Virus record (IMG/VR): IMGVR_UViG_3300017991_001902
Span: 1-23,908 of that record
DNA length: 23,908 nucleotides
Direction: 5' to 3' (one strand)
Source of the DNA: a virus
Below are positions 129 to 23,344 of this stretch, piece by piece; position 1 is the stretch's first letter, and each line of letters starts with the position of its first letter. The notes under the pieces were generated by a model. It searched no databases. It was given only the letters and a program-made list of their open reading frames with translations, and was not told where the DNA came from. The translations under genes and the position numbers were made by a program.

Positions 129-162
129 TGTGCCCTCCCGTGTGTTTGTCTCCGCTCATCAG

Positions 163-206
163 GCCGGGCCGATTTCCCGGCGAGCCCGGGGTGTGTGCCC
201 CGGGCT
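163..206 (-). terminator. Tandem GC hairpins after the 221-520 gene
   Basis: A perfect 9-bp inverted repeat (183-191 with 198-206, 6-base loop) lies 15 bases past the stop codon at 221. A second 6-bp hairpin (163-168 with 176-181) follows directly. On the minus strand no U-tract follows either stem, so this is not a classical intrinsic terminator. It may terminate with a factor or protect the 3' end of the message. Confidence 0.5.
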
Positions 207-220
207 TTCGCGTGCTTGGG

Positions 221-520
221 CTAGTCCGCTCTCATATATGGCAGATACACTGGCGCTGCGGGTGCGACAATGGTAACCAAGTAGCCATCTAGCGTTGCAG
301 TGTTGACCATGTTATATCCGTCGATCATAATGTCCCCGTTCAAAGGAGCGAACAAGGCTTTGAACACATCCGTATTCCAGGACTTGAGTGACTTCGTAGT
401 CCCCATGCTAGTACGGCGCATCACATGAATGGTCCCGTTTCGCTTGCAAACGATCTTGCTAATGCGTAAGTCGGAGTCTATAAGCAAAGCCTTCACAATC
501 TTTTGGAAGTCGGTTGCCAT
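221..520 (-). CDS. Hypothetical small protein (99 aa) with its own promoter
   Basis: The frame starts at ATG 520 with AAGGAG nine bases upstream and ends in TAG at 221. The N-terminal half looks helical and basic (Lys/Arg rich). The C-terminal half is hydrophobic and beta-like, with no clear membrane span. I do not recognise a family. It is the only gene in the window with a visible dedicated sigma70-type promoter (about 582-617) and it is bracketed by hairpins on both sides, so it looks like a single-gene unit outside the late structural operon. By eye its base composition is more AT-rich than its neighbours, which would fit separate acquisition. An accessory or regulatory role is possible but is only inference. 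Confidence 0.75.
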   Translation of the reverse strand: MATDFQKIVKALLIDSDLRISKIVCKRNGTIHVMRRTSMGTTKSLKSWNTDVFKALFAPLNGDIMIDGYNMVNTATLDGYLVTIVAPAAPVYLPYMRAD

Positions 521-581
521 TTCGTTCGTCTCCTTCGGGTGTCTGGGGGCAGTCCCTATCGCCGCCCCGTCCTTAACCTTA

Positions 582-617
582 CGACGATATTATAGCATAG
601 TTTCCCGCCTACGTCTA
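582..617 (-). promoter_or_regulatory. Sigma70-type promoter with extended -10
   Basis: On the minus strand a perfect TATAAT (589-594) is preceded by the extended -10 dinucleotide TG (596-597). A -35-like TAGACG (612-617) sits exactly 17 bases upstream of the -10. The predicted start is near 582, leaving a leader of about 60 bases before the ATG at 520. The flanks are conspicuously AT-rich in a GC-rich window. This is the best promoter I can find in the window. Confidence 0.8.
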
Positions 618-3833: not shown

Positions 3834-5935
3834 TATCGGCTCCCTCGCGCCACGTCGTATCGATCCGCGGCCTCTGCGTTCACCTCCAAGGCCAGGTGCG
3901 GCGGAGCGTGGATGTCGGTAAAGGCCGCCGTATTGAGGTTATGACTCAGGACCCAGATGCGCTGGTCCGCTACTGTCTGGAGCACGAGCGGAACCGCCGC
4001 GTCTACCCGCCATCGACGCCACCACCGCTCGGGCGAGTAGAAAGCTCCCGAGCTCGAATCCCATGCTAGGGTCTGATCCAACTCTACCGTGGATCGCGGT
4101 ACGGTCAGGCTGCCCAGGGTCAGTCCGAACTGGCACCCAGTAAAATATGTTACCGGGTCGCGCGTATCAATAAAACATTCATCAGCAGGCATGAGAATGA
4201 AATCGTAAAAGTCCGCCGTATACGCGCCTGTGCTTTTCAGATCGATTCGCAGATATGTCGTGGTGAGGCCGGCCTGTGGCACGCTTGCGCCGGGAGGCAG
4301 CCGAAACACTCCCAGGTCGAGGAGCCCAAACGCGAGCAAACCCGCGAACGTCGCTACGCTGGGTACGTCTATGATGCCGGAGTCGTAAAATGTATATCCG
4401 CCGGTCCCCAGCGCCGTGTAAAACCTCGCCTGAATATCACTGCTTACGCCGCCAGCTCCTCGATTATATCGTAGGAACCCATGAAAAAGCCCGGCATAGT
4501 CTGGCCCTAAGGCGTTGCTCAGAGAATGATCAAATTCACCGGACCAAGCACTTGCCCCGCCAGGATTATAACGAATACACCGTCCTGTAGGCGCTCGCGG
4601 GTCACTCTGCCAAGCACAGCTTCCCGCTCCATTGAGCGTGGCCGTATGGCCAGTCGGCTGTTGCACGTCACTCAGATTTAGGTAGGCGTCGAACGCGGCC
4701 CCTCGGCTCATTTTCCGGCCGCCAAGAATGATGCGATTGAAGTAGCCTTCCAGGCTGGACAAATAGTCACTACGAGGTCGCATCATATATTGCGCCAGAG
4801 CAGGATAGTCGCCGTCGATTTGCGCTTCGTCCACCTCAAAAAATGGATTGACGATGGTGTAGATATCGCGGTTCTGTTGCTGCGCCCGCGTGATACCCGC
4901 AGCTTCTGTTACGACGGCGCGCACCCAGTATCCGGTCACGCCATTCACTGCAACCGTCGCCCAGTCGCTCGGAGGAGACCAAACCACTGTCCCCGTGCCT
5001 GTAGCAACGAATGGTTGGGTATCAGGCCCGCTGACGTCGAGGATCCCATTCGGATGCGCTGTCCAGTCGAGGGAGGTTAGATTTACCCACGCGCCATTCC
5101 AATATTCCCATGTGACGAAATCGCCAGCGCCATACGTGGCGGCAGTGAGAATGTCGAACACGAGCGAGTCGAATGGCCCGGCGTCGGCGTAGGTTACCGT
5201 GTCGATCCCAAAGTACATGATGTCGCCGTTACCCGGTCCCGCCGCTCCGCCCGGGAAAATGTCGAAGGGCAGCGCTGCTCCGAGCAGGTTAGCTGAGAAT
5301 GGCCCGCCAGGGCTCGTCCAGTTGTAGATATCAGTCAGGCTGGCCATGACGTGTTTGTTGCCTACGTACACCTCGGGCAACGTCGTCGCCGCTCTGCCCT
5401 GTGTGTTGCTGTCGAGGTCGGTATACCGACTGCTGATCTCGATGGCGTGGCCTTCGCCAGGCGGTTCGCTCTGCCATATTCCAAGCTCAAGATAGAGGCT
5501 GGAACTGATATTCCGCTGTCGGAACGTCTGCGACAGATGGACCGGATCGTCCACGTCTGGGATCGCGAACCCTTTGATGATGGCGTAGGCGATCCCTGTC
5601 TCTCGTCCAGAGCGCCGCTCCAACCAGACGGGCTCGTCTTGCTGCCACGTGGTCCAGTAGGAGACACCCTTCTCCAACAAGGCCAACAACGCCGCCCACT
5701 CCGCCCAAAGGCTATCGTCACAGCCACGATTGAGTACGAACGGAATCTCGAAGGTGATATTGGTCAGCCGTCGCGAGGCCAGGGATCGCCCGTCTGCCAG
5801 TGGCGAGTCGCGCCACGCTCCGCCGCCTTTCCATAGCGGGCGTGCTTGGCGGAACACATCCCGAACGTGAAACGGTGGCCGCAACAGGTCGACGCGAACC
5901 GTCCCGTCCGTGAGCGTTAGCAACGGTGTGGCCAT
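3833..5935 (-). CDS. Distal tail protein (Dit-like) with extra beta domains
   Basis: At 700 residues this is much longer than a classical Dit (about 200-300). Residues 1-155 look like a Dit N-terminal domain that would form the ring closing the tail tube. Residues about 235-360 form a separate Trp-rich beta module with YWNGAW, a VVWSPPSDW strand and a YWVRA strand, a pattern I associate with accessory modules of baseplate proteins. A further lectin-like beta region covers about 415-590, and a final domain returns to tail-like sequence (about 595-700). The ATG at 5935 overlaps the tape-measure TGA by one base (TGATG) with GAGGAGG upstream. An evolved Dit with glycan-binding insertions is the best reading. 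Confidence 0.6.
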   Translation of the reverse strand: MATPLLTLTDGTVRVDLLRPPFHVRDVFRQARPLWKGGGAWRDSPLADGRSLASRRLTNITFEIPFVLNRGCDDSLWAEWAALLALLEKGVSYWTTWQQDEPVWLERRSGRETGIAYAIIKGFAIPDVDDPVHLSQTFRQRNISSSLYLELGIWQSEPPGEGHAIEISSRYTDLDSNTQGRAATTLPEVYVGNKHVMASLTDIYNWTSPGGPFSANLLGAALPFDIFPGGAAGPGNGDIMYFGIDTVTYADAGPFDSLVFDILTAATYGAGDFVTWEYWNGAWVNLTSLDWTAHPNGILDVSGPDTQPFVATGTGTVVWSPPSDWATVAVNGVTGYWVRAVVTEAAGITRAQQQNRDIYTIVNPFFEVDEAQIDGDYPALAQYMMRPRSDYLSSLEGYFNRIILGGRKMSRGAAFDAYLNLSDVQQPTGHTATLNGAGSCAWQSDPRAPTGRCIRYNPGGASAWSGEFDHSLSNALGPDYAGLFHGFLRYNRGAGGVSSDIQARFYTALGTGGYTFYDSGIIDVPSVATFAGLLAFGLLDLGVFRLPPGASVPQAGLTTTYLRIDLKSTGAYTADFYDFILMPADECFIDTRDPVTYFTGCQFGLTLGSLTVPRSTVELDQTLAWDSSSGAFYSPERWWRRWRVDAAVPLVLQTVADQRIWVLSHNLNTAAFTDIHAPPHLALEVNAEAADRYDVARGSR

Positions 5936-8900
5936 CAGACCTTCCTCCTCAAAGCGCGCAGAACCGTGTGCTCGATTCGCGACTCAATCGCCACCATATC
6001 CGCATCGGATCTCATCGAGGGGTTGTAGATGTTCACCGCCGCATTGTTGTTCGTAGTCGTTCCCCCGCCAGCGCCTGCGCCCCTGTAGACTCGGGCGGGG
6101 ATGAGCATCGGCTGGGGCATCATCAGGCGACGCATGGCCGAGCCTGCTCTCTCGGCCTGATCCGCCACTTGGCCCATCCAGTCAGCGAGCGGTGGCGGGC
6201 TGTGCCCTTCGAGCTCTGGCGGCACATCAACGTCGTCTAGCGCCCTATTCAACGCTCCGACCTCGGTGATGAGCGCACGGACAGCCGTCGTGATGTCATT
6301 GAAATCACTCACGGCGCCATTGCGGAATCGTTTGAGAGCGCCCCCGCCCTTGTCCTCCAGCTCACCCAGTGACGCGATGAGGTGCCCTAGGCTGGATGCG
6401 CCGCGGGTGAAGAAGGGCTCGAAGGTCACGTTGAGGTAGCTCAGCGCCTTCTCGATGGCATTCTTGACTGCCAATGCTGCGGCCTCGAACGCCTTCGCAT
6501 GTGGCACGCCGTATGTCCACATGTCGCCCTGGACGCGATTGATGGTATTGATAATGTCGCCGACGGTCCGCTCGAACGTGTCCATAGCGGCCTCGTAGTC
6601 CTCGCTGTTCTGACTGACTAGTGCCGCAAGCGCCTGTAACGTAGGCTCGATAAGGCCGATGATCGTGCCAGCGGTGGTTGCAAAGGCTTCTGCATTTATC
6701 AGGCTGTCCCGATAATCGTCGGCGAGCCTCTTGATGCTGCCAATCACTAGCCGTAGGTCCGCCTCAAAATCAGCTAGCTCCTGGGGTAGATTCACCGACG
6801 ACGTATACCCAAGCAGCGCTTTCACGGCGTCGATGGCAGGCTTTACGATCCCGATCATTGTCCCGATGGCTGTAGCAATAGCCGCCGAGGCCTCCATCGG
6901 TCCGGTCGGCTCCTCTCCGGTACCCATGAAACTGTCGGCCACCTCTCTGAGCTTGGTCACCAGCGTGGTCAAGTCGGTTTTGAAGTTTTCCATCGCCTCG
7001 GGCAGCCTCAGATAGGGCACGTACAAAGCCAGAGCGCGCAGCGCCTCAAGGGCGGGCTTGACGATCCCGATGATGGTTTGAACGTCGGAATAAAACTCCG
7101 CAGCAGCAGATACGGCATCGACGTCAAGATCAGGGCTGAGTGTCGACAGGCCAGTCGCTAGTCCTTCGATGGCCAGTCGCAGGTCGTCGATCCATCCACT
7201 GCGCTCTAAGACGTTGGGCAGCGCATAATCGGTAGAGTAGAACTCTTTGAGTGCCTGGAACGCTGCCAGGAATCCGCCAATGACCGCGTTGGCCGCGTCA
7301 TAGAATCCGGCCGATGCCGTGGCCAGCGTGATTAGCTCCTCAGTTCCCGCCTCCAATAGCGGCACGAGCGCCTCTAGATTGATCTTGATAGCCTGGATTG
7401 TGAGCTGCATGGTGAACCATTCCAGACGCGTTGGCCCCATCCAGGCCGCCTTCGCAAGCTCCTTCAGATTGGCGAACGCGCTGAGGAACCCCTCTATCAC
7501 TCCGCTTACGGCGCCATAGAATGTCCCGCTAGTCGTGGCGATGGTAGTCAACGCCTCAGTCCCGGCCTCCAAAAGCGGGACGAGCGCCTCTAGATTGACC
7601 TTGATAGCCTGGATCGTGAGCTCTATGGTGAGCCATTCCAGGCGCGTTGGCCCCATCCAAGCGGCTTCAGTGAGCGCCTTCAATTCATCCATAGCTTCCA
7701 AGAAGCCGGATATGGCCTGGTCAACAGCAGAGTAAAAGGCCCCGCTAGTCGTGGCGATGGTAGTCGATGCCTCAGTCCCGGCCTCCAAAAGCGGGACGAG
7801 CGCCTCTAGATTGACCTTGATAGCCCGAATCGTGAGCTGCATGGTGAGCCATTGAAGTCGTGTCGGCCCCATCCAGGATGCTGTGGTCAGGTTGTAGAGC
7901 CCTTGAAATGCCGCGATGAACCCGGAGACGGCATCTGCGATGGCACCATAGAATGCCGCACTATTTGTAACGATGGCCGTCAGCGCCTCTGTGCCCGCAT
8001 CCAAAAGTGGAGCCAAGGCCTCTAGATATAGGTTCATGGCACGGATTGATAATTGCATGGTGAGCCATTCCACTTGCGATGGCCTGACCCACGCTACCTC
8101 GCTGAGCCTTTTGAGTCCTTCGAATGCTGTGAGGAACCCAGATATCGCGCCCTGTATGGCGTTGTACCATTCTCCAGCGGCTGCCGTGGCCTTGGTGTCA
8201 GTGGTAGTGGCCAGGTCGTCTAGCATGCCCGCGACGCGCTCCAGATCCTCTTTTGTCTGTAGCAACGCTGACTCGAATGCCTCCCAGCCGCCCTCCATCT
8301 CGACGCCGAGGTCCAGACTGACCAGCTGGCTTAATGCCTCGGCACCGGCGACAAAGTTCGTCACGAGCGCGTTTGTGGCAGCCCAGAACTCCGCCTGCGC
8401 CTTCGCTGTTTCGTTAGTGACGGTGGTGGTCAGCTCGGCAAGAATGCCAGCCACACGTGCCAGATCGTCGCGTAGGCCGGACAGCGTGACAGTGAAAAAT
8501 GCCTCGTCGAATACGTTCGCGTCGAGGTCTAGATTGCCGGTGATCTTGGCGATGGCCTCCATGCTGCTTGCCAGCGCCTCTATCACGCCAACGAGCTCAC
8601 TGAGCTTGCCCTTCCAGCGCTTGATGTCGCCCTCTTTGTAGGCCGCGAGGGCGTTTTTGACCTCCTCCAAGATGGAGGTGATGGCCCCGGCGAAGTTCTC
8701 TAGCCATTGCAACGAAAAGAAGCTGTCCGGCTCGATACTCATGTCTTGGGCTAGCTGAATCGTGCGCACAAACTGATCGAACGCCTCGATGAAATCCTCA
8801 ACGGCATCGGCGATGATCTTGAGGACCTTAGCCTCGCTGTCGCTCATGCCGTTGGCGAGCCCCTCCATGATGTCCGCACCGATGTCCCAGAACACCTGCG

Positions 8901-11466
8901 AGGGCGACTCCGATTTCAGCAACTTCTGTGCCCACGCGGGGAGGAGCTCAATGAGCTTGGTGAACACCTGCTCAACGTTGCTCCATGCGGCCTCCAGTCC
9001 CGCCTTCAGGCCGCCCATGATGTCCTCGCCTAGCCCTTTGAACGTCGCGATTAGGTTCCGTACCGGCTTCGTCCACTCCGCCACTTTGGTGGTGATCGCA
9101 GAGACGATTTCACCGGCCTTGGTCTCGATCTTGCTCTTGAGCCCTTCCCATGTCTCGGTGATGGTCGTCCACAGGTCCTCTTTGTTGGTCCCGAATATCT
9201 TGAGGATGCCGTCCAGGATGCCGCCCAGCACGCCCGCGACCGCCGTGAGCACCTCGCCCGGAACCTGCTTGATCGCCTGCCACGCTGCGTCCCAATCGCC
9301 TTGGAGGACGGCGAGCACGGTATTGATGATGTGCTGGATGATGTTGAGAGCGCCGCTGATGAGGCTCTGGATCGCCGTCCACGCGACCTCGACGATGACC
9401 TGGACGGCGGGCCAAACCGTATCAAAGACGATCTTGATGGCTTCGAGCGCCGCAGTGATGATGGCTGCGATCTGGGGCATCTTAGAGCCGATGAACTCCG
9501 CCATGCGAGCAATCAGGTCCATGGCGAAGGGCACGACCTTCTCAAAGATGTTGCCGACGATCTGGATGGCCTTCACCACGACGGGGGCCATGTTCTCGAT
9601 GATGCTCTGGACTACGGGGATGACGCGCTGGACGGTGCTGAGAACGACGGGGAACACGCGCTCGAATATGCTGCCGATGGTGGTGATGGCAGTGGTGACG
9701 ACGGGGAGCAAGGAGCGGAAGGTGGACTCGAACAGCGTCCCCAGTTTCCCGAGAATGTTCATGACGTCGGGGAGGCTCTCGAGCAGCGTGCCGCCGATGC
9801 TCTCGCCGATCTTCATGACGGCGCCCTTGACGAGCTTTTGGGCGTCAAAGAACAGTCCGGCGAGGCGCTTGCCGATGTCTAGCGCCGGACGTATGAACTC
9901 CTCGATGGTCGGGGCCAGGTCGGGAAACGCCTCAGCTAGCGCCACGGCGAGGCTGTCTGCTAGCTCAAAAGCCACGCCGATGAGCTTGGGCTTCAGTCCG
10001 GCGATGAGCGGTCCGATTTCCTGCGCCCCACCAAAGAGCGCGGCCAGGACGCCGCCCGCATCGCCGGACGATAGCGCGGCCTTGACCTCCTCGAAGGTGG
10101 TGGTGACGGCAGTGATGATCGGCTCGGCCAGCCCGCTCAACCGATCCATGAGCAGCTGCGCCGGGTCGCTGCCAATGATGGCGTCAATGAGGCCGCCACC
10201 CGCTGACGCGCCTTGCGTGAACAGCGTGCTCAGGTCCGGGAGCTGCGGCAAGGTGATGTCGAGCGAGCCTATGAACTCCTTGGCGAAGCCCACCGCATTG
10301 ATGAATGCGTCTCGGACGCGATAGACGGCCTGGGCGAGGCGGAACAGCACCGGCGTTGGCACCTTGCCCTCGAGGAGCTCAAAGGCCGTCTGTACCGGAT
10401 TCAGCGCCTTGCTGATCAGCTCCTCGACTGACTTGCGCGCCGCGTCAAAATGCGCCTTGAGCTGGAAGAAGCGCTCTCCACCAAGGACATTGATAAACGC
10501 GACCCACGCCCGGCGCAGCGGATCGAAGCCGGAGTCCTTGAGGGCAACGAACTCCTTGACGAAGCCGGGGAGCAACCCGCCTATCTCAGCGACTAGGCCG
10601 CCAAACCGTGAGCCAGCATTCCACACCGCCATGAGCGCCGACGAAAGCCCTTGCGCGGCTTTCACGAGCAGCGGAAACACCTTCGACGCCAGCTGTGCCA
10701 TAACGCTCATGACCGCCGACATGACCGGCAGGAGCGCCACGCCAATGTCGTTGCGGAGGTTCTGGACCTGGACGCCGAAGCTGGCCATCTGTTGTCCGGC
10801 GGTACCGGCGATGCTGGGCATGGAGGCCGTGTTGATAGCCAGCTTCTCCATGGTCATGTTCATCACAGCGGTCTGCTGCTCGGCCTTGGTCAGGTCCTTG
10901 GCGCTCTTGCCGATGGAGGCGGCGTAGGCTTCGTTGGCTTCGGTGAGGTTGACCTGGATCCCGAGGTTGTCCAGGATCATCGGGCTCAGACGCCCAACGC
11001 CCTTGACCAGCGAGTCGAGCATGAAGCCCATGTCCTCGCCGGTGGCCGCGCTCACCTTCGACAGCATGGACATGGCGTCGGGCAGCTTCTGGGCAAAGTC
11101 GGTGGAGACGAGCTGGGCGGCGGAGTTGAACGTCTTCATCAGCTCGATGTCGGTCACCATGCCCAGTGATGCTTCGCGCATCCGCTCGATGGAGCCGCCC
11201 AACCCTTCGAAAGCACCGGCGACGCCGGGGATCTGCCCCGCCGCCTTCACCATCTCAATCGTCTGCTGCGCGAGGCCTTGGATGCCGCCCGCAAGGAGGT
11301 TGCCAGCGGCGAATTGCGCGATCTTCTTGAGCCCCGCCCCGATGCCCTTGGCGGCACGGTCGGTGTTTTCCTCCATGCCCTTTATGGCCTTGTTGTAGGC
11401 CGCGGAGCCCTTCCCAAAGCCCTGGTCATCGAGGACCGTTGCGAGGCCGATTTTCTGAAGTGCCAC
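5935..11466 (-). CDS. Tape measure protein (1843 aa)
   Basis: The longest gene in the window lies directly after the tail chaperones, as tape measures do. It is almost wholly helical, with hydrophobic stretches in the first 300 residues and around residues 590-750. A motif SPSQVFWDIGADIMEGLANG near residues 850-875 is characteristic of siphovirus tape measures. Residues 1126-1413 are four tandem 72-residue repeats, and degenerate copies continue on both sides. The C-terminus is short and basic, after a Gly/Thr/Asn linker. Start is GTG 11466, with GGGAG upstream; an ATG at a comparable place is absent. The protein sets tail length and passes into the cell during ejection. At about 1.5 angstrom per residue it predicts a tail near 275 nm. 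Confidence 0.93.
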   Translation of the reverse strand: MALQKIGLATVLDDQGFGKGSAAYNKAIKGMEENTDRAAKGIGAGLKKIAQFAAGNLLAGGIQGLAQQTIEMVKAAGQIPGVAGAFEGLGGSIERMREASLGMVTDIELMKTFNSAAQLVSTDFAQKLPDAMSMLSKVSAATGEDMGFMLDSLVKGVGRLSPMILDNLGIQVNLTEANEAYAASIGKSAKDLTKAEQQTAVMNMTMEKLAINTASMPSIAGTAGQQMASFGVQVQNLRNDIGVALLPVMSAVMSVMAQLASKVFPLLVKAAQGLSSALMAVWNAGSRFGGLVAEIGGLLPGFVKEFVALKDSGFDPLRRAWVAFINVLGGERFFQLKAHFDAARKSVEELISKALNPVQTAFELLEGKVPTPVLFRLAQAVYRVRDAFINAVGFAKEFIGSLDITLPQLPDLSTLFTQGASAGGGLIDAIIGSDPAQLLMDRLSGLAEPIITAVTTTFEEVKAALSSGDAGGVLAALFGGAQEIGPLIAGLKPKLIGVAFELADSLAVALAEAFPDLAPTIEEFIRPALDIGKRLAGLFFDAQKLVKGAVMKIGESIGGTLLESLPDVMNILGKLGTLFESTFRSLLPVVTTAITTIGSIFERVFPVVLSTVQRVIPVVQSIIENMAPVVVKAIQIVGNIFEKVVPFAMDLIARMAEFIGSKMPQIAAIITAALEAIKIVFDTVWPAVQVIVEVAWTAIQSLISGALNIIQHIINTVLAVLQGDWDAAWQAIKQVPGEVLTAVAGVLGGILDGILKIFGTNKEDLWTTITETWEGLKSKIETKAGEIVSAITTKVAEWTKPVRNLIATFKGLGEDIMGGLKAGLEAAWSNVEQVFTKLIELLPAWAQKLLKSESPSQVFWDIGADIMEGLANGMSDSEAKVLKIIADAVEDFIEAFDQFVRTIQLAQDMSIEPDSFFSLQWLENFAGAITSILEEVKNALAAYKEGDIKRWKGKLSELVGVIEALASSMEAIAKITGNLDLDANVFDEAFFTVTLSGLRDDLARVAGILAELTTTVTNETAKAQAEFWAATNALVTNFVAGAEALSQLVSLDLGVEMEGGWEAFESALLQTKEDLERVAGMLDDLATTTDTKATAAAGEWYNAIQGAISGFLTAFEGLKRLSEVAWVRPSQVEWLTMQLSIRAMNLYLEALAPLLDAGTEALTAIVTNSAAFYGAIADAVSGFIAAFQGLYNLTTASWMGPTRLQWLTMQLTIRAIKVNLEALVPLLEAGTEASTTIATTSGAFYSAVDQAISGFLEAMDELKALTEAAWMGPTRLEWLTIELTIQAIKVNLEALVPLLEAGTEALTTIATTSGTFYGAVSGVIEGFLSAFANLKELAKAAWMGPTRLEWFTMQLTIQAIKINLEALVPLLEAGTEELITLATASAGFYDAANAVIGGFLAAFQALKEFYSTDYALPNVLERSGWIDDLRLAIEGLATGLSTLSPDLDVDAVSAAAEFYSDVQTIIGIVKPALEALRALALYVPYLRLPEAMENFKTDLTTLVTKLREVADSFMGTGEEPTGPMEASAAIATAIGTMIGIVKPAIDAVKALLGYTSSVNLPQELADFEADLRLVIGSIKRLADDYRDSLINAEAFATTAGTIIGLIEPTLQALAALVSQNSEDYEAAMDTFERTVGDIINTINRVQGDMWTYGVPHAKAFEAAALAVKNAIEKALSYLNVTFEPFFTRGASSLGHLIASLGELEDKGGGALKRFRNGAVSDFNDITTAVRALITEVGALNRALDDVDVPPELEGHSPPPLADWMGQVADQAERAGSAMRRLMMPQPMLIPARVYRGAGAGGGTTTNNNAAVNIYNPSMRSDADMVAIESRIEHTVLRALRRKV
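7228..8091 (-). repeat. Four 216-bp tandem repeats in the tape measure gene
   Basis: Anchor words recur at exact 216-bp steps: CCTCTAGAT at 7371, 7587, 7803 and 8019, and the codon for the first Trp of each unit at 7441-7443, 7657-7659, 7873-7875 and 8089-8091. Each unit encodes 72 residues: W-x-x-P, then EWLTMQLTI-like, NLEALVPLLEAGTE, an FY dipeptide and a GF-x-AF helix. The inner copies are nearly identical in DNA, so they duplicated recently. Units at the ends have drifted, and a degenerate fifth unit starts near 7227. Confidence 0.9.
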
Positions 11467-11484: not shown

Positions 11485-11679
11485 CTACCAGTAGGACGCG
11501 CTCGGCGGGCGGCTTTTCTTGGCGTCGCGGCGCGCCTGCTCCGTCTCCCACGTCTCCATGTCCGCAAGGACTCGCTCGTGCGCTATCAGCAGAGCCCGCA
11601 CCCAGGCCGGTAGTGCCCACCACTCACGCGGGTCACGATAGCCCCGCGCCTTCATGGTGTTGAGCTCAATCAGACTCAT
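11485..11679 (-). CDS. Second tail assembly chaperone reading frame (GT 'T' type)
   Basis: A small frame of 64 residues from ATG 11679 lies between the first chaperone gene and the tape measure, in the classical place of the T part of the G/GT system. It contains the compact PREWWALPAWVRALLIAHERV segment pattern (Trp-rich, then a helix) and a charged C-terminus. The two frames overlap by 14 bases and this one is +1 relative to the first. Candidate starts are 11712, 11685, 11679 and 11655, and none has a convincing SD. It is therefore made by translational coupling or by a frameshift. No standard -1 slippery heptamer is visible in the overlap. Confidence 0.65.
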   Translation of the reverse strand: MSLIELNTMKARGYRDPREWWALPAWVRALLIAHERVLADMETWETEQARRDAKKSRPPSASYW

Positions 11680-12409
11680 CGGCATCAGCCACGATCGACT
11701 CGATGCCGGCAATCGCGTCTGCCATGGCGTCCTTCGCGCGCTGGTCCATTGCGGCAGTAACGCGTCGTAGAAACGAGGTCACATCGTCCGGCTCCACGGA
11801 CGATGCGATGGTCAGGAACTGAATCTTGGCGAGGATCAGCTGCGACTCGAACAGATCGATCTTGCCGCCGTACAGCAGCCAGTAGCCTAGCCGCTCGCGG
11901 CGCTTCTCCGGCATCTCTAGGCCGATTATGTCGAGCGTGTCCTCTAGGCTCACCCACTCGGGGTCATCCTCGTCCGGTATCTGGTCGGGCTTGATGTCCA
12001 CGCCGAACACATAATTGGCTAGGGTTGCCCGGTCCTCTTGGATGGCCTCCAGTCGCTTGAGCGCGTCCTGGTGTGCTCGCCACGCCGCCCAGTTGCGCCG
12101 CGTCTCCTCCGAGTCCTCGACATCGAGCGTGTTGACGCCGTTTTCGGGATCGTAGGCGTGTGGGTACTCCTCGACAGGGACTGGCTGTCCCCTCGATTGA
12201 TAAAACTCCGGCGGGCCGCCCACCGTCAGTTGATAGGTCGGCGGATCGATGGCCCAGCCTGCCTCACGCGCCTCCGATTCGGCCTTGAGCAGGTACGCTT
12301 GGAGGACCACCTGCGGCACGGGCTTGAGCGTGAGATCCAGGCCACTGTGCGTGAGGAGGCGGTCCGGCTTGGTGCGAATCTCTTTCTCTAGGTCGCGGCG
12401 ATTCGGCAT
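11666..12409 (-). CDS. Tail assembly chaperone (G-like, 247 aa)
   Basis: The gene sits between the tail tube and tape measure genes and is followed by an overlapping short frame, the hallmark of tail assembly chaperones. These proteins bind the tape measure and recruit tube subunits during tail growth, and they are not part of the final virion. The sequence is acidic and helical with no membrane span. The C-terminal third (about 150-247) contains EWVSLEDTLDIIGLEMPEK and a long helix. Start ATG 12409 has only AAGGA about ten bases upstream, weaker than most genes here. It follows the only sizeable non-coding leader inside the late operon (12410-12528), which suggests its level is tuned. Confidence 0.75.
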   Translation of the reverse strand: MPNRRDLEKEIRTKPDRLLTHSGLDLTLKPVPQVVLQAYLLKAESEAREAGWAIDPPTYQLTVGGPPEFYQSRGQPVPVEEYPHAYDPENGVNTLDVEDSEETRRNWAAWRAHQDALKRLEAIQEDRATLANYVFGVDIKPDQIPDEDDPEWVSLEDTLDIIGLEMPEKRRERLGYWLLYGGKIDLFESQLILAKIQFLTIASSVEPDDVTSFLRRVTAAMDQRAKDAMADAIAGIESIVADADESD

Positions 12410-12528: not shown

Positions 12529-14070
12529 CTAGCCGACGGTGTTGACCACTTCAAAGATGTAGCTGGTCGTCTCGGTATTGCCCACGGCAAGGGCCCGGTT
12601 GGCGTGACAGACGTACATGCCCGGGAGGTAGTAGCTGTTGTCGTCCAGGGCGTCCGGTGTCGTCCACAGGTCCCAGTCCATGCCGCCGTTGCGCGACCGC
12701 TGAATGCCCGCATAGTACGCCGGGCCGCTGATGCTGTAGCCGAAGGCCAGGAACAGCACATAGCGGTCCAGGGCATAGATGTCGTCAACGGTGACGAGAG
12801 TGCCGCTAGCGGGAACGCGGATTGCTCGCTCTGCCCAGGCTGCGCCTTGATTGCGGGTGTAGTACACATCCCCGTTCTCAAAGCCGACGAACCAGTGCGA
12901 CTCGTCTAGCACCGCCACGCAGTTCGCCATGACCGTCGCGCCGGGGCCGCTGGTGAATCCGCTTGACGTCCAGTGGAGGCCGCCGTCGACGGTGTAGAGG
13001 CACACCTGACTCGCGCCAGTGGCCCCGCCCACCGCGACGCCAACCTTGCGGTCGATCATGCGGATGTAACGGAGCGCGACTGCATTGCCGCTCACCTGAT
13101 CGGCGAATGTCTCGGCCCCGTCGCTGCTGTAGTAGATGTCGCCCTGATCGTCAACGGCCCAAACCTCTTTGCCGACGTTACAAAGGCCACCACTGTGGAG
13201 GCCAAAGTTGGCGTTGACCGCGCCGAGGTTGGCCGTGGTCCAGGTCGCGCCACCATCGTCACTGTAGGCCACTTCGCCAGGGTTCGCGGCATCCGTGGTG
13301 CCGCGCATGACCACGACGCGCCAGGTGCCCTCGGAGATGGGGAAGCACACGACGGAGTTGATGTCCTCGTCGGCTGCAAACGGATCTGCCGCTGTCTGCG
13401 CCCAGGTGATGCCGCCGTCGGTAGAGTAGAGTACCGGCGCGTTACCACCGACGCCATCGGCGTTGCCGACTGCCCAGAGGTTGTCACAGTGCTCCTCTGC
13501 CGCTCCGCAGCCGTCCCCGCAAACGTCGTCACCGCACCCGGCAATGTCTCGAAGCGGGTCCGCGTTAGAGGTGGTGCGACGATACTTGCCGAGCTCAAAG
13601 ATCGCCAGTCGCTTGAACAGGTCCCAGTCCACACTGTCCATCACGTCCTGGCCTGACTCGCGGTTGCTGATCTGATTGAGCGTGATCTGCGTCGCGATGG
13701 AGTCCTCGTACACCTCGGATCGGTCATAGTGGTTGAACGTGTCGCGGGGCGGGCAGTTTGTGAAGTTCACATACAACCCCGCCGGACACCCGCGCTCCAC
13801 GACGCGCTCCATGTACGACTGGATCTTTGGCGTCAACTCCTCGACGCTCAGCGTCGGGGCGTCCGGCGCTTGGATGCGCCGTGAGGTCACCTCGTACTTG
13901 CCGGTGACCGGGTTGTAGCAGTTGGTCCGCTCCACCGAGCCTCGCGGATCGGTCACGCTGTCGATGTTCGCACAGCCTAGCCGGTACACGGTGGTGTTGG
14001 GGCCATCGGGCTGAATCCATACCGTGGTCCATTCGTCCTTGACGGTTTGATTCTGTCGTCGGTCCGTCAT
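12529..14070 (-). CDS. Major tail tube protein fused to a six-Asp-box beta-propeller
   Basis: Residues 1 to about 175 have the position and character of a siphovirus tail tube subunit, with strands around YRLGCANIDSV and a YEDSIATQITLNQISN helix. A Cys-rich linker follows (C179, C184, C188, C195). Residues about 197-513 carry six Asp boxes (S-x-D-x-G-x-x-W type) at about 215, 269, 314, 359, 404 and 458. These are spaced 54, 45, 45, 45 and 54 residues, as in BNR/sialidase, Ycf48 and sortilin-type propellers. The start ATG 14070 has GGAGG six bases upstream. The gene precedes the tail chaperones, which supports a tube role. The propeller should project from every subunit of the tube. I see no catalytic set for sialidase activity, so binding is more likely. 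Confidence 0.75.
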   Translation of the reverse strand: MTDRRQNQTVKDEWTTVWIQPDGPNTTVYRLGCANIDSVTDPRGSVERTNCYNPVTGKYEVTSRRIQAPDAPTLSVEELTPKIQSYMERVVERGCPAGLYVNFTNCPPRDTFNHYDRSEVYEDSIATQITLNQISNRESGQDVMDSVDWDLFKRLAIFELGKYRRTTSNADPLRDIAGCGDDVCGDGCGAAEEHCDNLWAVGNADGVGGNAPVLYSTDGGITWAQTAADPFAADEDINSVVCFPISEGTWRVVVMRGTTDAANPGEVAYSDDGGATWTTANLGAVNANFGLHSGGLCNVGKEVWAVDDQGDIYYSSDGAETFADQVSGNAVALRYIRMIDRKVGVAVGGATGASQVCLYTVDGGLHWTSSGFTSGPGATVMANCVAVLDESHWFVGFENGDVYYTRNQGAAWAERAIRVPASGTLVTVDDIYALDRYVLFLAFGYSISGPAYYAGIQRSRNGGMDWDLWTTPDALDDNSYYLPGMYVCHANRALAVGNTETTSYIFEVVNTVG

Positions 14071-14071
14071 C

Positions 14072-14524
14072 TCATTCCTCCATCCACTCTTGCGCCGCCC
14101 TCATCATCTCGTGGACGGCAGGCTTGATAGCGGCTAGGACGGCGGCCATGACCTTATTGCCGTCAGTGGCGTCCTCCAGCCTCCACACACCGCGCTTCCG
14201 TAGCTCGAGCTCAACATCATCAGCACTGACCTTGATCTTGGCGAAGCGATGCCATGGGATGCCATAGGGCGGTCCCGCATCCAGAATGTCCTCACGTACC
14301 GCGACCGCCTCACCGTCGCGCTCTAGCGCATCACGCGGGACGTAGCAGCGCTCGACGGTCCCTTTCGCCCAGGACCCGTACTCGACCAACGCTGCGCCTT
14401 GGGCGCTGGTACCGGCCCGGTCTATCACGCGCACCGAGATCATCTGGAGAGGCGGCGTGACGGGCTCGGGTGGCTCTGGCTCAGGCTGCTCCCCGTCCTC
14501 GATCCTCTCTAGCTCGTCACTCAT
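14072..14524 (-). CDS. Putative tail terminator or neck protein (150 aa)
   Basis: ATG 14524 is chosen because AGGAGG sits just before it and includes the upstream TAG stop. Longer upstream starts would run deep into the gp10-like gene. The N-terminus is acidic and Pro/Glu rich (residues 3-29). A compact beta domain (about 30-115) is followed by a C-terminal helix (about 122-150). Its place between the HK97-gp10-like gene and the tail tube gene is where tail terminator or tail-completion proteins are encoded. The assignment rests on position; the sequence itself gives no motif that I recognise. Confidence 0.6.
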   Translation of the reverse strand: MSDELERIEDGEQPEPEPPEPVTPPLQMISVRVIDRAGTSAQGAALVEYGSWAKGTVERCYVPRDALERDGEAVAVREDILDAGPPYGIPWHRFAKIKVSADDVELELRKRGVWRLEDATDGNKVMAAVLAAIKPAVHEMMRAAQEWMEE

Positions 14525-14531
14525 ATCCCTC

Positions 14532-15062
14532 CTAGCTGCGGCCCGCATAGTGACCGCTCTTCTTCGCCCCACGAACCATAGCCTTTTCCATCGCACGTTT
14601 GAACAGTTTCTGCCGCTTCTTGACGATGGCTTTGATAAAGTTCCGCGCCTTAGTGCCTGGGTGCCGGACGTGCGGCGTGTAGACTGTGGGGCCGCCGCTG
14701 CGCCCCGTACCTGACGCGAGCTTTCCCGGTCGCGTCTTGGGGCTGAACGCGGACGGAAAGGCCAGCGTGCGCTTGTTCGATTTCCCGGTGTAGTAGCCCG
14801 CCCAGATGTCGTGCGGGCGGGTCCCTTCGTTGACCCAGTTCCAAACCTGATTGTCGGTGAAAAAATCCACCTGCGGCCCCGGCTGGCGTAGGCTGATGCT
14901 GAATGAAAACTCCACCTCGGTGTCCCACGTGCGGACCGTGGCGTTGAGGTCCTCGCGAACGATCCGCCGGGCCTCCTTGCGCAGCTCGTTCAGCAATTCC
15001 AGGCGCACCGCGTCCATGTTGAGCTTGGGCGGTTTGATCGCCTTACAAAGCGGCCTAGCCAC
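14532..15062 (-). CDS. HK97 gp10-like neck / tail completion protein
   Basis: The 176-residue protein has the hallmarks of the HK97 gp10 family. These are a central WNWVNEGTRPHDIWAG segment, then HPGTKARNFIKAIVKK leading into a basic C-terminal helix that ends Arg/Lys/Ser rich. These proteins sit at the neck and help join the tail to the head. I place the start at GTG 15062, where GGGAGGAG lies upstream and the gene overlaps the previous stop by only eight bases. The longer ATG start at 15098 would overlap by 44 bases and has no SD. Neighbours on both sides are small neck-type genes. Confidence 0.8.
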   Translation of the reverse strand: MARPLCKAIKPPKLNMDAVRLELLNELRKEARRIVREDLNATVRTWDTEVEFSFSISLRQPGPQVDFFTDNQVWNWVNEGTRPHDIWAGYYTGKSNKRTLAFPSAFSPKTRPGKLASGTGRSGGPTVYTPHVRHPGTKARNFIKAIVKKRQKLFKRAMEKAMVRGAKKSGHYAGRS

Positions 15063-15258
15063 GCGGCACTCCTCCCGCCTCAAAGTATGGTCGCCCATCC
15101 TCGTCCTTGGCGGCCATGATCACAGGCACGTCTCGGGCGTCTAGCACCACAAGACCTCCTGGGCGCACCGGATACCACTGACAGGTCACCGAGCCGCGAA
15201 ATTTGCCGCCTCGGGCACCTTGGTATCTCGCCAGCACCGTCCCGACCTCGCCAAACAC
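15055..15258 (-). CDS. Small connector-region protein (67 aa)
   Basis: A short beta-rich protein starts at GTG 15258, without a clear SD. It includes a YPVRPGGLVVLDARDVPVIM segment, a style seen in small head-tail region proteins that carry a Tyr-Pro...Arg-Pro-Gly element before an Asp. No catalytic motif is visible. It lies between the connector gene and the gp10-like gene, and overlaps the latter by eight bases. The open frame extends upstream to a stop at 15307, so the start could be a few codons earlier at a rare codon. Real gene likely, role unknown. Confidence 0.55.
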   Translation of the reverse strand: MFGEVGTVLARYQGARGGKFRGSVTCQWYPVRPGGLVVLDARDVPVIMAAKDEDGRPYFEAGGVPRG

Positions 15259-16176: not shown

Positions 16177-17160
16177 CTACGTTGGATTCGTGACAGCGAG
16201 CCCGTCCATACAGTAATTGCCGATCCAGGCACTCGTCGCGGGCGCACCGTCGCTGTTGAGATCATCCCAGTCGCCGTTGGCCGGAACAGGTAGCAGGCAT
16301 GAAAACCAGCAGTCGGCGATGATGTTTTCGTCTCCTCCCGCCAGATCAAACCCTTCGTCAGTCGCTGCCGCCGCGCCGTAGGCATTGCTGTTCCACACTC
16401 GGCAGCGCAGTATCTCGCTGCTGTCTAGCACCCGACCCGAGATGGCACTTGTCCCCACGTCACGGAACTCGCAGTCGCTGACGTGGAGATAGTCTATGCC
16501 GCTCCCTGCTGGGTCGATGTAGATGCCGTACGCATCGCACTCTTGGAACACACAGCGCCTGATCCAGCAGTTCCACGAGTATTCGAGCTGAATGGCGATG
16601 TCCACTTCGTCGTCAAAGAAGCAATCCTCAATGACCAGGTTCTCGCCCCACAGCGTCGCCCCGTCCCACTCGGAATAGATCGCGTTGCCCCCGAGAGGAG
16701 CCCCGAAACAGAATCCGGCGATGCGCACGTCTAGGGCAGCAACGGTGATGGCCGTCTCGCCAGCTCCACCGGGTTGCCAGACAGGGCCTAGCGGCGACCC
16801 CGGCGAGACGCCCAGGATGGCGATCCCGTGCTTGTCCACGGTCACGCTCTCCTGGATGGGCGTCTCCGTCTGCGGCGCGTACTGCCACGCGTCCATGTGA
16901 CGGACAATGATAATGTCGCCATGCCACGAGCGGCACTTGGTGATAGCCGCCGCCACAGTCGCTAGCGGAGCATCGGGGTCCGTCCCGTCGCGTTGGTCCG
17001 TCACCCCGGTCGCGTTGGGGTCCACATAGAGCACCTTGGAGTCTGGGTAGCGCCGGAGCCCAGTCGTCAGGTCCGTCCCCGGTACCCCATATTGCGATGG
17101 GTACCAGGGCTTGAGCCTCTGGAGCGACCAGGATGGGACACGAACATCAGTTGCTGGCAT
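16177..17160 (-). CDS. Right-handed parallel beta-helix protein, copy 2
   Basis: The 327-residue protein contains regular short beta coils rich in Val, Ile, Cys, Asn and Gly (about residues 70-290), with phrases such as NLVIEDCFFDD, WIRRCVFQECDAYGIYID and LHVSDCEFRDVG. These are typical of pectate-lyase-like right-handed beta-helices. The entry motif GTDPDAPLATVAAAI lies at about 59-73. The N-terminal region and the C-terminal AWIGN...NPT match the copy at 17492-18487, so they are paralogues. Start ATG 17160 has AGGAG six bases upstream. A virion surface role such as head fibre or glycan binding is inferred from fold and place. No catalytic Asp/Lys set for lyase activity was identified. Confidence 0.8.
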   Translation of the reverse strand: MPATDVRVPSWSLQRLKPWYPSQYGVPGTDLTTGLRRYPDSKVLYVDPNATGVTDQRDGTDPDAPLATVAAAITKCRSWHGDIIIVRHMDAWQYAPQTETPIQESVTVDKHGIAILGVSPGSPLGPVWQPGGAGETAITVAALDVRIAGFCFGAPLGGNAIYSEWDGATLWGENLVIEDCFFDDEVDIAIQLEYSWNCWIRRCVFQECDAYGIYIDPAGSGIDYLHVSDCEFRDVGTSAISGRVLDSSEILRCRVWNSNAYGAAAATDEGFDLAGGDENIIADCWFSCLLPVPANGDWDDLNSDGAPATSAWIGNYCMDGLAVTNPT

Positions 17161-17491: not shown

Positions 17492-18487
17492 CTACGTTGG
17501 TCGGGCGATGGTGATGCCGTTGTCCCCGACCTCAGCCTCCGCCGTATCGTCGGCCCAGTTGCCCAGCCAGGCATCAGCAGCGCCGGGGCGATAGCCGCCC
17601 GCAATGCTATAGTCGCCCGGGAACACGTTCTCCGCCACGATGTTGTCATCACCAGGGTTCGCCACCGTCGAGGTGTTGAGCACCTGGATCATAGCATAGG
17701 CGTAGCCCGTAGGCTGGAAGAGGCAACCGAGGATGAAGCTGCCATTCATGCTCCACTCCACGCCGTTGTCCGAGTCGTGGAAGTAGCAGCCGAGGATGTA
17801 GTTGCGGTACGGAATCGCCAGCGGGGTCGTGGTGGTCTCCATGCAAAACGCAGTGTTGCCCACGTTGTTGAACAGGGCAAACGTGCAGTTGACGACCCAG
17901 ACGTCATAGCAGCCGTGCGACTCGATGCCGCGCAGCCCCGTGGTCAGCCCGTCAAAGTAGCAGTCGTGGACGACCGTCCGGATGGCGATGTCGTTGGCCC
18001 CGCTATCCGTGTGGCGCAACACGAGGCAGGACGCCCCTGTCTTGCCATAGAAGCGAAAGCCGCTCACACGCCAGCCAACGGCTCGCATGTCTAGGCTGGC
18101 CGTGTCCGCATCGTCGCCGCTCCATGCCGGACTGTAGCGACTGATGCCGTTGCCGCGGATCCAGACATAGTTCGGGCCTGTCGCATAGTCCGGCGTGACG
18201 ACGTCCTCGGCCACCTCACCGCTCACCCTGATTTCGCTGTAGGGCGTGAGGAGGCTTGAGTTGACGGCGGCCTGGACGGTCGCCAAGGGCGCCGTCGGGT
18301 CCGTACCGTCGTTGGTGTCCAGGGCGTTGGGATGCCCGCTGTCCACGTACAGTATGACCGCATCAGGATGGGTGCGCCATCCTAGGGGGCTGTCGGAGCC
18401 CTTCACCCCGAACTGCCCGCCAAAGAACTGCGGCTCGCGCTGCATGATCGTCGGGCGCCCGACCATCTGCTCAGCCATCACATTCAT
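17492..18487 (-). CDS. Right-handed parallel beta-helix protein, copy 1
   Basis: The 331-residue protein shares its layout with copy 2. It has an N-terminal lead, an ILYVDS strand near residue 45, and the motif GTDPTAPLATVQAAV at about 61-75. A stack of short coils follows (about 78-295) with patterns such as AIRTVVHDCYFDGL, VWVVNCTFALF and NYILGCYFHDSDNGVEW. It ends AWLGNWADD ... ARPT. Right-handed beta-helices in phages are often tailspikes or head fibres that bind or cut surface glycans. Here the gene is next to the capsid gene, so a capsid-surface location is favoured. Start ATG 18487 has GGAGG six bases upstream; inner Met codons at residues 4, 8 and 15 lack one. Confidence 0.8.
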   Translation of the reverse strand: MNVMAEQMVGRPTIMQREPQFFGGQFGVKGSDSPLGWRTHPDAVILYVDSGHPNALDTNDGTDPTAPLATVQAAVNSSLLTPYSEIRVSGEVAEDVVTPDYATGPNYVWIRGNGISRYSPAWSGDDADTASLDMRAVGWRVSGFRFYGKTGASCLVLRHTDSGANDIAIRTVVHDCYFDGLTTGLRGIESHGCYDVWVVNCTFALFNNVGNTAFCMETTTTPLAIPYRNYILGCYFHDSDNGVEWSMNGSFILGCLFQPTGYAYAMIQVLNTSTVANPGDDNIVAENVFPGDYSIAGGYRPGAADAWLGNWADDTAEAEVGDNGITIARPT

Positions 18488-22049: not shown

Positions 22050-22331
22050 CTACTCGGCCGCGGGCCCGTCATCACGGGGCCACTCGATCTCGACCACTGT
22101 GAATTGGGGCTTCCGCTCTTGCTCGATCCTCTTCCATCGCGTCCTGAGAATGGCGGGCATCTGCGCTTCCGCTCGAATCACCGCCCCTTGATCCTCGTCA
22201 CGCAGCGCCTCGAATCTTTCGGCTGTCTGAGCGCGGGTAAGGAAGCGCTCCCATTCACGGTCATCCATCTGTTCAAACGGAGCGAAAGGACGCACTACAG
22301 CAAGCCGCCGACTGAGCGCTGGAGTGATCAT
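22050..22331 (-). CDS. Small hypothetical protein (93 aa)
   Basis: The frame overlaps the ART-like gene by ATGA (22328-22331) and its TAG stop forms part of the protease gene's SD. The sequence is helical and charged, opens MITPALSRRLAVVRPFAPFE and contains DDREWERFLTRAQTAERF; it ends in a short beta strand with FTVVEIEWPR. No family is recognised. The tight coupling on both sides marks it as a genuine late gene. A role next to the ChaB-ART protein or in head assembly is possible. Confidence 0.65.
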   Translation of the reverse strand: MITPALSRRLAVVRPFAPFEQMDDREWERFLTRAQTAERFEALRDEDQGAVIRAEAQMPAILRTRWKRIEQERKPQFTVVEIEWPRDDGPAAE

Positions 22332-23344
22332 TGCCCCGCCTCGACGATCAGTGCGGTCCTATTCAGGATCAAATAGACGTCAAAGCCTTGATCGATGGCG
22401 TCATAGCCCATCGCGGCGGCGAGCCTCCCAGGGTCCGCGTATGCCCGCTCCAGCTGTTCGCGTTGCGGATGCGGGCTCCCATCAAGACGTTTCATATACT
22501 CGTCGGCATCGGCCTGGCGCCCCTCTCGCTGCGCCCGTCTATATTGCGTGAATAGCTGTTTCTGCTCCTCCGGGCTCGGACGCCCAGCGAGCCGCTCCTT
22601 ATACTGAGCGCGTATCTCTCTGAGCTCGTCATTCGTGATTGTCTTAGCTCCTGGCCGCAAGGCCATGTGAACCACAGCATCAGGTGTCCCACCGGAGTAG
22701 TTCTGTGCGTATCCTTGATCGGTCGTCGTATAAGTGCCTGATCCGCCACCACCTCGTCCTGAATAGAGATCGCCGCTACGAAACTGTTCCGCCTGTTCCC
22801 CCGTCGCGACTCCGCGCCAAAGCTCTACGCCACCCTCTGGAACCGCCAACTCATCGACAACCTGTGGGAGACCATCGAATCCTTGCGCGTGGAGAATCTC
22901 CTTCAGCACAAGGTCTTCCGAGTGAGTTGGGTTGAATGGGTCGACCTCGCCCGCGAACTTGTCTAGCCCGCACATTGATAAAGGCGGCTCGGCGCCGATA
23001 TAGTTGGCTCGCAGATACTGTCCGGCAACCCCTCCGCCGCCCCTAGGCGCGCTCCCGCCCCGCCGCCCCTTGATCCCTTTGTGCCCCCAGTTGCCGGAGC
23101 CTGGGCCGCCTTCTGTGAGAGCGTCGATCCACTCTAGCTCGACCACTGCCTCACGTGTTTGCGCGTTCGCTGCGGTGTAGGCGATACGGAACGCCTCCCC
23201 CTCACACTCACTGTTGTCCCCGCCGTCGCGCCGACAAGCCGAAAAGCTGCGGTTCCACGCTCGCACCCAGGTGATGCGTCGATCCTCAGACCACGCCTTC
23301 ACGCGATCCGGCAGCCCGGGATCGTCCTTCCCATCATAGGGCAT
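22328..23344 (-). CDS. ChaB-like and ADP-ribosyltransferase-like fusion (338 aa)
   Basis: Residues about 8-60 look like a ChaB-type domain (LPDRVKAWSED, W29-x-N31, two Cys and AFRIAYTAAN). A Gly-rich motif, GGPGSGNWGHKGIKGRRGGS (79-98), is widespread as a linker in phage head-associated proteins. Residues about 165-338 resemble an ADP-ribosyltransferase: LWRGV with R177, an STS-like GTYTTTD (203-209), and a closing GYDAI...VYLILNRTALIV. The usual catalytic Glu pair is not clear, since the ExE region reads FDVYLILN, so activity is uncertain. Like T4 Alt, it may be packaged and ejected. The start ATG 23344 has only AGG two bases upstream. Position upstream of the protease suits a minor head protein. 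Confidence 0.65.
   Translation of the reverse strand: MPYDGKDDPGLPDRVKAWSEDRRITWVRAWNRSFSACRRDGGDNSECEGEAFRIAYTAANAQTREAVVELEWIDALTEGGPGSGNWGHKGIKGRRGGSAPRGGGGVAGQYLRANYIGAEPPLSMCGLDKFAGEVDPFNPTHSEDLVLKEILHAQGFDGLPQVVDELAVPEGGVELWRGVATGEQAEQFRSGDLYSGRGGGGSGTYTTTDQGYAQNYSGGTPDAVVHMALRPGAKTITNDELREIRAQYKERLAGRPSPEEQKQLFTQYRRAQREGRQADADEYMKRLDGSPHPQREQLERAYADPGRLAAAMGYDAIDQGFDVYLILNRTALIVEAGQ

Follow-up and report, generated by a model that had tools for sequence, protein, structure and literature searches.

A putative tail-tube protein with a C-terminal seven-bladed Asp-box propeller in a family of uncultured viruses of microbes

Introduction

Several phage tail-tube proteins, including lambda gpV, T5 pb6, YSD1_22, and SPP1 gp17.1*, have an N-terminal tube fold followed by a surface-exposed C-terminal accessory beta domain. 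Ig-like domains of this kind are common on tubes (PMC9022992). The lactococcal 936 phages provide a precedent for a large adhesive module: TpeX, the carbohydrate-binding extension of their major tail protein, attached to host cells when fused to GFP (PMC6669499). TpeX is produced by programmed frameshift and occurs in only some of these phages.

The 513-aa viral protein described here shares this general layout, and its gene holds the same position as those of the Ig-bearing tube proteins. In contrast to the Ig domain of lambda gpV-type tubes, which spans approximately 90 residues, its outer domain is a predicted propeller of 340 residues, which makes it twice as large as the tube domain, and the tube domain itself has no sequence similarity to the lambda gpV-type tubes. 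Unlike TpeX, the propeller is encoded in frame, has a different fold, and is present in every member found. A tube protein with an outer domain is thus of a known kind; what is new is the propeller domain, its size, and its constancy. A full-text literature search, judged by titles and abstracts, returned no description of a tail-tube protein with a propeller.

Results and Discussion

The gene occupies positions 12529–14070 on the minus strand of the window, the whole 23,908-base stretch that was analyzed (IMG/VR record IMGVR_UViG_3300017991_001902). It is a single uninterrupted frame of 513 codons, with its ATG at 14070 and its stop at 12529, and its annotation draws on the frame, Pfam, structural models, and gene order. 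The window is 99.98–100% identical to part of IMGVR_UViG_3300018080_000024, a contig of 55,666 bp. Both ends of that contig lie inside the tube-propeller gene and overlap by approximately 120 bp, and the genome is therefore probably circular and complete.

Other elements of this genome deserve mention. A type II hammerhead ribozyme-like element (Rfam RF02276) occurs in four copies (window 144–213, minus strand; locus L137 4365–4434, 5966–6035, 6380–6447, and 11458–11529), in which the letters of stem III vary and complementarity is kept. The best copy scores 41.2 bits (gathering score 37) and two others 35.6 and 33.0, while the fourth is seen as a repeat copy only. A promoter-like repeat beginning TATGCTATAATATCGTCGTAAGGTTAAGGACGGGGCGGCGATAGGGAC shares the genome region with the hammerhead copies and is found in three places (window 515–600, minus strand; L137 5677–5754 and 11185–11262). 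Two right-handed beta-helix-like proteins (window 17492–18487 and 16177–17160, minus strand), kept in most relatives, are encoded in the interval from the major capsid gene to the next connector gene. One has a weak match to tail-spike PHROGs; from their gene position, both may be capsid decorations rather than tail spikes. Adjoining the capsid genes is a 338-aa protein (22328–23344, minus strand) whose C-terminal half looks ADP-ribosyltransferase-like by eye only.

The tube-propeller gene lies within a recognizable tail module on the minus strand. A 188-aa tail completion or Neck1-like protein (14532–15098; PHROG 5, E = 4.4e-4) is followed by a conserved 174-aa protein directly upstream of the tube gene (14072–14596), named from its position as a probable tail terminator. 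Between the tube gene and the tape measure is a conserved 247-aa protein (11666–12409), a probable tail assembly chaperone, again by position. The frames of this ORF and the next ORF, of 75 aa, differ by +1, and no clear slip site for a frameshift between them was seen. The tape-measure protein (1843 aa; 5935–11466) is identified by its length, its position, a weak TMP_N match, and its retention in relatives. The order completion protein, small protein, tube, chaperone-like protein, tape measure, and baseplate proteins is nearly constant over approximately 45 loci. The earlier note had raised the possibility that the tube protein is encoded elsewhere; no other gene was found at the tube position, and no rival or tube-only gene in the tube region, in the window or in its relatives.

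The tail-tube domain

The predicted tail-tube domain comprises residues 13–166 (13573–14034, minus strand) and is modeled as a beta sandwich with a long hairpin (residues 46–66) and a helix (residues 86–93). An AlphaFold2 (AF2) model of residues 1–185, built with 43 homologues, has a pLDDT of 86.7 and a pTM of 0.74. When this model was compared to the PDB with Foldseek, tail-tube proteins were the best matches (E = 1.9e-6 to 1e-5), including those of AFP (1.9e-6), 80alpha (2.8e-6), lambda gpV (4.6e-6), NF5 (7.1e-6), and Sf11 (1.0e-5), with Hcp at 4.3e-5. The PVC tube, phage 812, cyanophage A-1(L), and monocin are also among the matches, and the PDB entries listed are either tubes of tails, injection systems, or type VI secretion systems, or tail, neck, or baseplate assemblies that contain tubes. 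TM-scores are moderate, mostly 0.5–0.68, as expected for remote tubes that differ in loop conformation. The suggestion that the N-terminal domain is tail-tube-like, made in the earlier note from the sequence, is supported by this confidently predicted fold, and the prospect raised there of a prediction with no tube-like fold did not materialize.

Sequence searches of the N-terminal domain against Pfam, PHROGs, and the PDB gave no match to any known tube family. Such similarity is usual for a tube protein but not required, as tube proteins diverge beyond recognition. The tube identity consequently rests on the predicted fold and the gene position, which together make a major tail-tube protein of siphovirus type the most likely assignment. 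The fold is common to terminator, distal-tail, and baseplate rings as well, and several assemblies of these types are among the PDB matches, so that the protein could instead be a minor tail or neck component (a terminator, distal-tail, or baseplate ring) rather than a shaft subunit. However, the gene has the completion/terminator genes immediately on one side and the chaperone/tape-measure genes on the other, the distal-tail candidates are located downstream of the tape measure, and no suitably sized gene would otherwise remain for the tube. A minor component is for these reasons very improbable.

The propeller

Residues 170–510 (12541–13563, minus strand) form the putative propeller, as indicated by Pfam, Asp boxes, the structural model, and the family consensus. 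Six Asp boxes, at residues 215, 269, 314, 359, 404, and 458, are spaced 54, 45, 45, 45, and 54 residues apart, just as the earlier note had read them. A relaxed Asp-box pattern occurs six times, whereas 20,000 residue shuffles average 0.11 occurrences and never exceed 3. Two Pfam families, BNR (E = 3.3e-7) and PSII_BNR (YCF48; E = 1.2e-6), score above their cut-offs, and no glycosidase family scores above its Pfam cut-off for the 513-aa protein; the analysis pointed to no catalytic site or ligand. The full-length AF2 model (9 sequences) has a pLDDT of 74, with a good propeller, in whose blades pLDDT is approximately 86, and poor tube loops. In the PDB it most closely matches YCF48 propellers (E = 1.8e-11, TM-score of 0.71 by target), which likewise consist of seven Asp-box blades. 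YCF48 serves in the assembly of photosystem II; the two propellers differ in that identity is approximately 15% and the viral one is fused to a tube, and no photosynthetic role is implied. The best match in BFVD, the unnamed viral protein A0A1P8DJ39 (497 aa; E = 3.2e-17, TM-scores of 0.67/0.69, 16% identity), aligns over the full length and probably has the same two-domain design. Such proteins are therefore already in databases, without description.

Each blade is laid out as strand A, strand B, strand C, Asp box, and strand D. In the consensus of 40 sequences, the A-strand motif LNDIAFC also appears at residues 172–179, ahead of a Cys-rich stretch, and at the C-terminal end strands A, B, and C recur with no Asp box. 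On these grounds the propeller is predicted to have seven blades, the seventh lacking both Asp box and strand D. The propeller would thus begin near residue 170 rather than at residue 195 as first proposed. Strands at residues 160–166 and 173–178 are modeled with good confidence, and in the family consensus the linker between tube and propeller is only a few residues long. The Cys-rich stretch (residues 179–197, with C179, C184, C188, and C195; 13480–13536, minus strand) was considered as a disordered linker and rejected as such: because residues 172–179, which precede it, match the innermost-strand pattern of the other blades, it is predicted to form a loop that connects strands A and B of blade 1.

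The cysteines provide additional evidence on how the parts may be joined. C33, C51, C95, C106, C184, and C188 are each found in 80–98% of sequences. Three Cys pairs change together on the tree: C195–C488, in blades 1 and 7 (7 shared change branches, 0.8 expected), C179–C242 (7, 1.1 expected), and C106 of the tube with C188 of the propeller (4, 0.5 expected), compared to 0 and 1 in two control pairs. This joint gain and loss suggests disulfides. A C195–C488 bond would join the first blade to the seventh and so seal the ring, and a seven-bladed ring with this co-varying pair now replaces the earlier idea that the last and first strands pair to close it. A C106–C188 bond would anchor the propeller on a tube domain, either that of its own subunit or that of a neighbor.

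Distribution of the family

A scan with the major capsid proteins of the window and one relative yielded 18 viral loci, and every contig among them that reaches the tube position encodes a protein with both tube and propeller. A second scan, with tube proteins as query, yielded 43 loci; it used a 4-sequence alignment, as an alignment of nine tube proteins was too diverse. No tube domain without a propeller was seen among the approximately 45 loci (more than 40 viral contigs), although the second-scan patterns drew on both domains and a tube-only relative may have escaped them. In complete copies the two domains are always in one frame of 483–527 aa. As judged from these sequences, a large family of uncultured microbial viruses has retained the tube-plus-propeller design.

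Three family members had no tblastn match in 50,697 phage records, leaving no cultured relative to draw on. Methanoculleus virus L4768/Blf4 has a distant relative of the major capsid protein, and its tube candidate had no match. In a collection of genome contigs, 53 of 54 matches rest chiefly on the propeller with its Asp boxes, and the one full-length relative (L076) is on a 101-kb contig placed in an Anaerolineae bin. This is a weak hint at the host, since tail genes and a portal-like gene are present on the contig itself. Tandem, divergent tube-plus-propeller genes occur at L033 (5995–7452 and 7459–8934, with a copy in L036) and at L028 (1–1086 and 1100–2614), which hints that some members may build mixed tubes.

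Architecture and role of the propeller coat

We propose that residues 13–166 would assemble into stacked hexameric rings that enclose the DNA channel of a non-contractile, siphovirus-type tail, and that each subunit would display its propeller on the outside through the few-residue linker and probably a disulfide, so that the whole tail would be studded with propellers. As read from the genes and the predicted models, it is likely that the protein is a tube subunit and that most or all of its copies bear a propeller on the outside. The tail of lambda has 32 rings for a tape measure of 853 aa. Scaled from lambda, a tape measure of 1843 aa gives an estimate of approximately 69 rings and 400–415 propellers; such hundreds of propellers per tail would follow from the in-frame fusion to the tube subunit. 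By our own estimate, a propeller approximately 45–50 Å wide at a radius of approximately 75 Å would fit six to a ring, and the helical rise of tail tubes is 38–43 Å (PMC9022992).

A sparser decoration, in which precursor processing or an early end of translation leaves the propeller on a minority of subunits, would have parallels in SPP1 and the lactococcal 936 phages, where frameshifting produces mixed tubes (PMC9022992, PMC6669499). Yet the fusion is in frame and unbroken in every complete homologue, and a linker of a few residues should offer little space for a cleavage site. We consider such a minority arrangement unlikely.

If most or all subunits do carry a propeller, the coat would most likely be an accessory that attaches weakly, through many contacts at once, to a common surface component, such as a cell-surface polymer or matrix. 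Such contact would help the tail reach its receptor, with the true receptor binders at the tail tip. The propeller is not hypervariable, being slightly more conserved than the tube domain, and its loop lengths are nearly fixed across the family, unlike those of a typical receptor binder. This argues against a receptor binder that determines specificity; what remains is a coat that is either structural or adhesive in a generic, low-affinity way. The chances that adhesion is the role are evenly balanced, and binding of a glycan or a surface by a putative adhesive propeller is plausible.

A structural role, in which the propellers pack against their neighbors and stiffen or protect the tail without binding the host, has a lesser but substantial claim. 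The propeller is as well conserved as the tube (mean pairwise identities of 35% and 31%, respectively), its loops are near-constant in length, the linker is very short, and a Cys pair links the two domains; moreover, all members found have it, whereas carbohydrate-binding extensions are optional. Against this, a whole propeller would be expensive merely for stiffening, and known tube extensions are dispensable for tube formation (PMC9022992). In a six-fold ring with a 40 Å rise there would also be spare room by our estimate, so that packing contacts would not be forced.

Returning to the adhesive reading, it is possible that a large, so far undescribed clade of tailed phages has permanently joined a seven-bladed propeller to every tube subunit and so turns the whole tail into a polyvalent adhesive surface of several hundred disulfide-stapled propellers; we hold this full picture tentatively, its chances falling a little short of even.

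Implications

The purpose of outer domains on phage tail tubes is an open question, and tubes can often do without their Ig-like domains. In the diverse family described here, all members found have kept a domain of far greater size, which is thus probably needed. A deletion or binding test on the propeller could reveal what tail decorations do. The self-assembling tube would, in addition, offer a dense and regular display of the propeller, a common binding scaffold.
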